Source: Nitrososphaera sp. (GTDB taxonomy: Archaea; Thermoproteota; Nitrososphaeria; Nitrososphaerales; Nitrososphaeraceae). From it: DNA of 34,626 nt. Positions 27,165 to 27,365 of the stretch are shown here, in pieces. A program made the position numbers and the translations under genes. Position 1 is the first letter of the stretch. Every line of letters begins with the position of its first letter. Under the pieces are notes generated by a model that was not told the origin of the DNA, did no database searches, and saw only the letters and a program-made list of their open reading frames with translations. Where the stretch lies: contig JANWIX010000064.1 of the NCBI GenBank assembly GCA_025449675.1, positions 1-34,626 on the forward strand, written 5' to 3'.

Positions 27165-27175
27165 AATTATATATC
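27165..27175 (+). promoter_or_regulatory. TATA box upstream of tRNA-Tyr
   Basis: ATTATATATCA about 28 bp upstream of the tRNA 5' end. Confidence 0.55.
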
Positions 27176-27198: not shown

Positions 27199-27365
27199 CC
27201 CGCGGTAGCTCAGCCTGGTAGAGCTTTCGGCTGTAGATGTCGGCTTTGTCTCATTAGCTGACCACGTGAAACGGCCTATCGGGCGTACAACTTGCAGTAA
27301 CCGAAGAGTCGCAGGCTCAAACAAAATTGGCAAAAGCCAATTTGGAGCAAATCCTGCCCGCGGGA
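27199..27365 (+). tRNA. tRNA-Tyr (anticodon GTA) with two introns (27237-27299 and 27321-27350)
   Basis: Acceptor CCCGCGG(27199-27205)/CCGCGGG(27358-27364), D-arm GCTC..GAGC, anticodon stem TTCGG/CCGAA, loop CTGTAGA after removal of intron 1, T-stem GCAGG/CCTGC with loop CTCAAAT after removal of intron 2; spliced length 74 nt; C1:G72 and A73 as in archaeal tRNA-Tyr. Confidence 0.93.

Follow-up and report, generated by a model that had tools for sequence, protein, structure and literature searches.

A two-intron tRNA-Tyr gene of Nitrososphaera and a T-loop intron fixed in the sampled Nitrososphaeraceae

The tRNA-Tyr(GUA) gene of the soil ammonia-oxidising archaeon Nitrososphaera sp. contains two introns, one at the canonical position 37/38 and one within the T-loop, between positions 58 and 59. 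The gene occupies 27199–27365 of the forward strand of the window, which is the whole 34,626-nt stretch of DNA analysed, and has a spliced length of 74 nt including A73. The probability that this is a functional single-copy gene with two protein-spliced introns is put at about 0.95; from the sequence we infer its transcription, the cutting and ligation of its precursor and the order of the cuts. In the sampled family the T-loop intron is fixed and occurs in two tRNAs (Tyr and Trp); it is bounded by a relaxed bulge–helix–bulge (BHB) motif. The window corresponds to contig 64 in a 1.74 Mb MAG of 87% completeness. The neighbours of the tRNA gene, on the same strand, encode delta-aminolevulinic acid dehydratase (upstream) and an aldehyde dehydrogenase (downstream). 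The features described below are collected in Table 1.

Table 1. Features of the tRNA-Tyr locus (window positions) and of the splicing endonuclease subunits (positions within loci L117 and L200)
Feature	Position	Strand	Basis
TATA-box-like TTATATAT	27167..27174	+	25-32 nt upstream of tRNA-Tyr
Exon 1, positions 1-37, anticodon GUA	27199..27236	+	sequence reading, ARAGORN after intron removal
Canonical BHB central helix, 5' side (C32-U35)	27231..27234	+	pairing analysis
Canonical intron at 37/38, 63 nt	27237..27299	+	central helix, bulges, outer helix
Upper hairpin of canonical intron (GUCGGCU...AGCUGAC)	27239..27262	+	RNAalifold consensus, four families
Conserved element CGGCC UAUC GGGC GU ACA	27272..27289	+	CGGCC complementary to G30-G34; ACA 15 nt from CGGCC start
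Canonical BHB central helix, 3' side (GCAG)	27294..27297	+	pairing analysis
Exon 2, positions 38-58	27300..27320	+	sequence reading, ARAGORN after intron removal
T-loop BHB central helix, 5' side (G53 C54 U55 C56)	27315..27318	+	55/55 unique Tyr paired at all four pairs
Noncanonical intron at 58/59, within T-loop, 30 nt	27321..27350	+	conservation, pairing, fold
8-bp hairpin of T-loop intron	27324-27331/27336-27343	+	fold
T-loop BHB central helix, 3' side (GAGC)	27345..27348	+	pairing analysis
Exon 3, positions 59-73	27351..27365	+	sequence reading, ARAGORN after intron removal
Splicing endonuclease subunit pair, one with apparent Y-H-K triad, the other without the His	L117 951-1583; L200 1222-1785	-; +	

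The unspliced window yields no tRNA with ARAGORN and none with Rfam at gathering thresholds. Once both introns are removed ARAGORN reports tRNA-Tyr(gta) with a full cloverleaf in which every stem is paired. If the T-loop insert is kept, it reports no tRNA, and if that insert alone is removed it mis-calls the gene as a tRNA-Asn with a shifted intron. The preliminary description had proposed a two-intron tRNA-Tyr with all arms paired, had placed the introns at 27237–27299 (63 nt) and 27321–27350 (30 nt), and had warned that scans without multi-intron support would miss or mis-score the gene. These boundaries hold and give the 74-nt tRNA, the perfect ARAGORN tRNA-Tyr appears solely after excision of both segments, and the warning is borne out by the blank results and the tRNA-Asn mis-call. 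In each of the Nitrososphaeraceae genomes read, a tRNA serving two codons is lost to any scanner without a multi-intron model, which affects MAG completeness counts and codon–tRNA studies of this soil group.

A gene that standard scans miss in its unspliced form might be a decayed pseudogene in a cell served by another tRNA-Tyr. Another intact tRNA-Tyr, which, with the present copy silent, had been named beforehand as a finding that would overturn the two-intron gene, was looked for in the source genome and this match alone was found; each complete Nitrososphaera genome searched also has a single tRNA-Tyr match. The family group to which the gene belongs (f1) corresponds to Nitrososphaeraceae by sequence match to named records; those sharing the tRNA-Tyr 5' half come from Nitrososphaera, Nitrosocosmicus, Nitrosopolaris and other Nitrososphaeraceae. 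Its genomes have one copy each wherever a tRNA-Tyr was found, the exception being one genome with a second match truncated at a contig end. As all stems are intact and the gene is fixed in the sampled family, the chance that it is a pseudogene is negligible. Most of the tRNA-Tyr genes of the 51 relatives have a T/A-rich box beginning between -32 and -28, and the TATA-like box upstream of the present gene is, as judged from sequence, its own promoter, from which it would be transcribed.

The 63-nt intron beside the GUA anticodon, proposed earlier to lie at 37/38, forms a canonical BHB. The 4-bp central helix (positions 32–35 with i-6 to i-3) is paired at 4/4 positions in 53/54 unique f1 introns, and sliding the partner leaves at most 0.61 of the cells paired. 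The bulges are each 3 nt and the anticodon stem provides the outer helix, as in canonical 37/38 BHB introns generally.

The motif of the T-loop intron was analysed with pairs counted from the two splice ends, the scored cells being four pairs of the central helix and the next four inner pairs. The pairs G53:i-3, 54:i-4, 55:i-5 and 56:i-6 are formed in all 55 unique tRNA-Tyr and all 27 unique tRNA-Trp sequences. Across all scored cells 98.0% are paired in Tyr and 98.6% in Trp; when the partner is slid by 1–2 nt these values fall to 26–57% and 26–42%, respectively. At position 54 Tyr has a C:G pair and Trp a U:A pair, and the first inner pair (i2:i-7) is C:G in some sequences and U:A in others. 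The 5' bulge consists of A57, A58 and i1 (3 nt). Because the bulge rule places each cut after the second nucleotide of a bulge (A57 A58|A; A A|A59), the junction falls at 58/59, where it had been proposed within the T-loop. Variants of the 3' bulge such as AGA and ATA give CUCAA|AU all the same; the mature T-loop is constant although the bulge and intron sequences vary. G53 is borrowed from the T-stem; the effective 3' bulge is thus 5 nt and the outer helix has four pairs, in place of the 3-nt 3' bulge and outer helix of the strict form, and the motif is a relaxed BHB. When the T-arm is folded alone the minimum-energy structure keeps an intact T-stem and the BHB form appears in the centroid. 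An explanation of C54 by the intron was dropped, as C54 is also present in an intron-less tRNA-Tyr (L002) and in the tRNA-Lys(TTT) and one tRNA-Met of the source genome.

Comparison with the tRNA-Tyr loci of relatives, as the preliminary description had suggested, places both introns in all 51 fully read Nitrososphaeraceae genes, the source gene included; the T-loop insert always follows A58, and it is present in 50/50 loci from named records. The insert is 19–32 nt long with freely variable sequence. It is missing from family group f2 (7/7) and from the Nitrosopumilaceae-like group f9 (25/25). Unrelated inserts at or next to 58/59 of tRNA-Tyr are found in three further groups (f10, 2/3; f22, 2/3; f33, 1/1). 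In one genus of f10 (g20) and one of f22 (g61) alleles with and without the insert coexist (L002 compared with L003; L264 compared with L265/L266), and the insert-free alleles have an ordinary 7-nt T-loop. The same architecture is found in the tRNA-Trp(CCA) of the source genome (L113, contig 74), a 138-nt Rfam match with introns at 37/38 and 58/59. All 31 f1 tRNA-Trp records read carry the 58/59 intron besides the canonical one; these comprise this gene and 30 further records, one of which is the same gene again. The earlier view of T-loop introns as noncanonical stands, while their assignment mainly to Thermoproteales and some other lineages is too narrow given the sampled family, its tRNA-Trp and the tRNA-Tyr inserts in three or more further families of the phylum. 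The Tyr and Trp introns with their switch at position 54, together with the alleles with and without an insert, offer a well-defined setting in which to study how T-loop introns originate and why they persist.

These comparisons also bear on the idea that the T-loop insert, which forms a strong hairpin, is retained in the mature tRNA as an extension of the T-arm. A retained hairpin would not need exon–intron pairing or a Tyr/Trp switch at 54, yet the splice-side nucleotides and the 53–56 pairing stay while the sequence and length of the insert drift. Retention would further disrupt the D-loop/T-loop elbow, and the intron-less alleles show a normal T-loop. Retention is therefore most improbable, and removal of the insert as an intron is the reading followed here.

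Why the intron should be kept is a separate matter. Avoidance of mobile elements has been proposed for archaeal tRNA introns (PMC4090602, PMC3293823), and as 58/59 falls within the usual attachment stretch the intron could persist because it breaks an integration site in the 3' half of the tRNA. The viral contigs searched include none with a tRNA-Tyr 3' half, either uninterrupted or interrupted. This account would explain retention of the intron and not the mechanism of its removal, and is considered quite unlikely.

The enzyme expected to remove both introns is represented by two PF01974 proteins in nearly all relatives that are at least 90% complete. Read against the M. jannaschii enzyme, the Y-H-K triad positions of the shorter protein are filled by FAVY, DHAPYLV and a Lys. 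In the longer protein FRVY and the Lys are kept, with KKPAKYVV in place of the His. The pair, as judged from these motifs, is consistent with the (alpha-beta)2 type of endonuclease, the type assigned to Thaumarchaeota (PMC4090602). Efficient removal of relaxed motifs, which are known at the T-loop, is restricted to the (alpha-beta)2 and epsilon2 enzymes (PMC6379350). In the 87%-complete source assembly the longer, beta-like subunit alone was found and the catalytic alpha subunit was not; its absence there is probably an assembly gap. In the proposed pathway the precursor would be transcribed from the gene's own promoter, C32–U35 would pair with the 3'-proximal GCAG of intron 1 to form a BHB, and G53–C56 with the 3'-proximal GAGC of intron 2 to form the relaxed BHB. 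The (alpha-beta)2 tRNA-splicing endonuclease would then cut each strand behind the second nucleotide of its bulge, and the exons would be joined by RtcB-type ligation into the standard 74-nt tRNA.

The 37/38 intron contains, in addition to its splice motif, a deeply conserved element. Across four families, 83 unique 37/38 introns share one RNAalifold consensus, which pairs exon G30–G34 with an intron CAGCC and places a hairpin above U35–G37. Most of thirteen additional loci, twelve of which come from six other families, have unrelated hairpins in place of the upper one, as in f22, f24 and f29. A CAGCC-type segment, a small hairpin and an ACA/ANA 14–16 nt from the start of the segment are nevertheless present in 95/96 unique introns from ten family groups (besides the window, loci L004–L010 and L254–L268), and positions 31–34 are paired with the segment in 95/95, as the guide complementarity of an H/ACA RNA would require. 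The sequence between segment and ACA varies, and a 1-nt longer loop is compensated by a 1-nt shorter spacer in f10 and in most f2 introns. In f10, f22, f24 and f29, and in most f9 introns, the ACA shares nucleotides with the BHB strand ACAG; in f1 and f2 it is separate from that strand and is still kept, in 54/54 and 7/7 introns, respectively. In f1 it lies 7–11 nt from the 3' splice site and may be followed by any base, so it stands outside the BHB. The sole tRNA-Tyr with A31 among 398 phylum genomes (L261) has U as the partner at the same spacing; covariation at position 31 thus rests on this single case.

Together with wholly different upper hairpins between families, these features suggest that the element might be more than a spacer and might present or guide U35 for pseudouridylation before splicing, either in the fashion of an H/ACA RNA or as a determinant for aPus7 (TruD). 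In Sulfolobus, Psi35 of pre-tRNA-Tyr is reported to be H/ACA-dependent and made by an H/ACA sRNP (PMC7991803). Several observations speak against such a role. Read by eye, the upper hairpins of the families contain no K-turn, K-loop or tandem G-A motif, and the intron element has no consistent lower stem. The 14–16 nt rule for the ACA box is measured from the upper stem (PMC4652768), whereas here the distance is counted from the guide segment and the upper stem stands several nucleotides from the pocket, so the spacing is not that of an H/ACA RNA. A search of the locus with Rfam at E up to 10 gave chance matches only and no H/ACA family. Among shuffled introns 2–15% each satisfy the loose segment-plus-ACA rule, rates that cannot be multiplied across introns because the families share descent. 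The CAGCC segment may instead make a local hairpin with RGGC; the element would then be a plain structural one, and local GCCU/RGGC pairing would fix the spacing without any guide function. The TruD motifs look intact; that an RNA guide is necessary for lack of TruD was rejected, the enzyme being present in 21/21, with motifs that resemble those of the M. mazei protein, and Cbf5 is present alongside it. A role of either kind in presenting or guiding U35 is consequently regarded as unlikely. The narrower proposal is that the 37/38 intron of tRNA-Tyr in Nitrososphaeria and relatives encodes a cis-acting, H/ACA-like element by which U35 is held or guided for pseudouridylation ahead of splicing, and that this element has exon nucleotides in common with the splicing motif; it is a little more doubtful still. 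Were it true, modification of U35 and splicing would be mutually exclusive in time. Deep conservation inside an ordinary intron offers a direct way to test whether anticodon modification in archaea can depend on an intron.

Other tRNA genes of the source genome have features of their own. Three, read by eye, have extra segments outside 37/38 (L114, L115 and L116): the segment lies in the D-loop region in tRNA-Gln(CTG), close to where the D-arm starts in tRNA-Gln(TTG) and at about 25/26 in tRNA-Asn(GTT). U at position 55 is nearly universal in tRNA; four tRNAs of this genome (L088, L090, L098 and L104) have C55 in a loop reading UCCGAAU, and C54 is present in tRNA-Tyr, tRNA-Lys(TTT) and one tRNA-Met. 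The C55 and C54 tRNAs may reflect editing or loss of Psi55. The exact tRNA-Thr arm is found in 3/31 genomes of the order.

Noncanonical tRNA introns of Thaumarchaeota are already known in kind, 107 having been reported with tRNAscan-SE 2.0 (PMC8450103), and the T-loop intron described here is a further example. Like those of Crenarchaeota and Thaumarchaeota, which include T-loop introns (PMC8450103, PMC6379350), it is short, lies off 37/38, has a BHB at its junctions and belongs to a lineage with the (alpha-beta)2-type enzyme. What sets it apart from them is its fixation across the sampled family, its shared position in Tyr and Trp, and its relaxed outer helix. The 37/38 intron resembles canonical archaeal tRNA-Tyr introns in position, 4-bp central helix and 3-nt bulges, but has an extra element conserved across the phylum. 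A T-loop BHB is likewise found in the permuted tRNA-Tyr of Thermofilum pendens, which, with tRNA-iMet, is joined at 59/60 (PMC3218864); there, however, the gene is permuted and the position a neighbouring one, whereas Nitrososphaera has an intron. The tRNA-Trp intron of Haloferax, with its box C/D guide (PMC4090602), is similarly complementary to its own exon, and the H/ACA sRNP reported for Psi35 in Sulfolobus has the same target uridine as the putative Nitrososphaera element (PMC7991803). As a putative guide, the Nitrososphaera intron differs from both in having no recognised C/D boxes and no K-turn seen in its hairpins.
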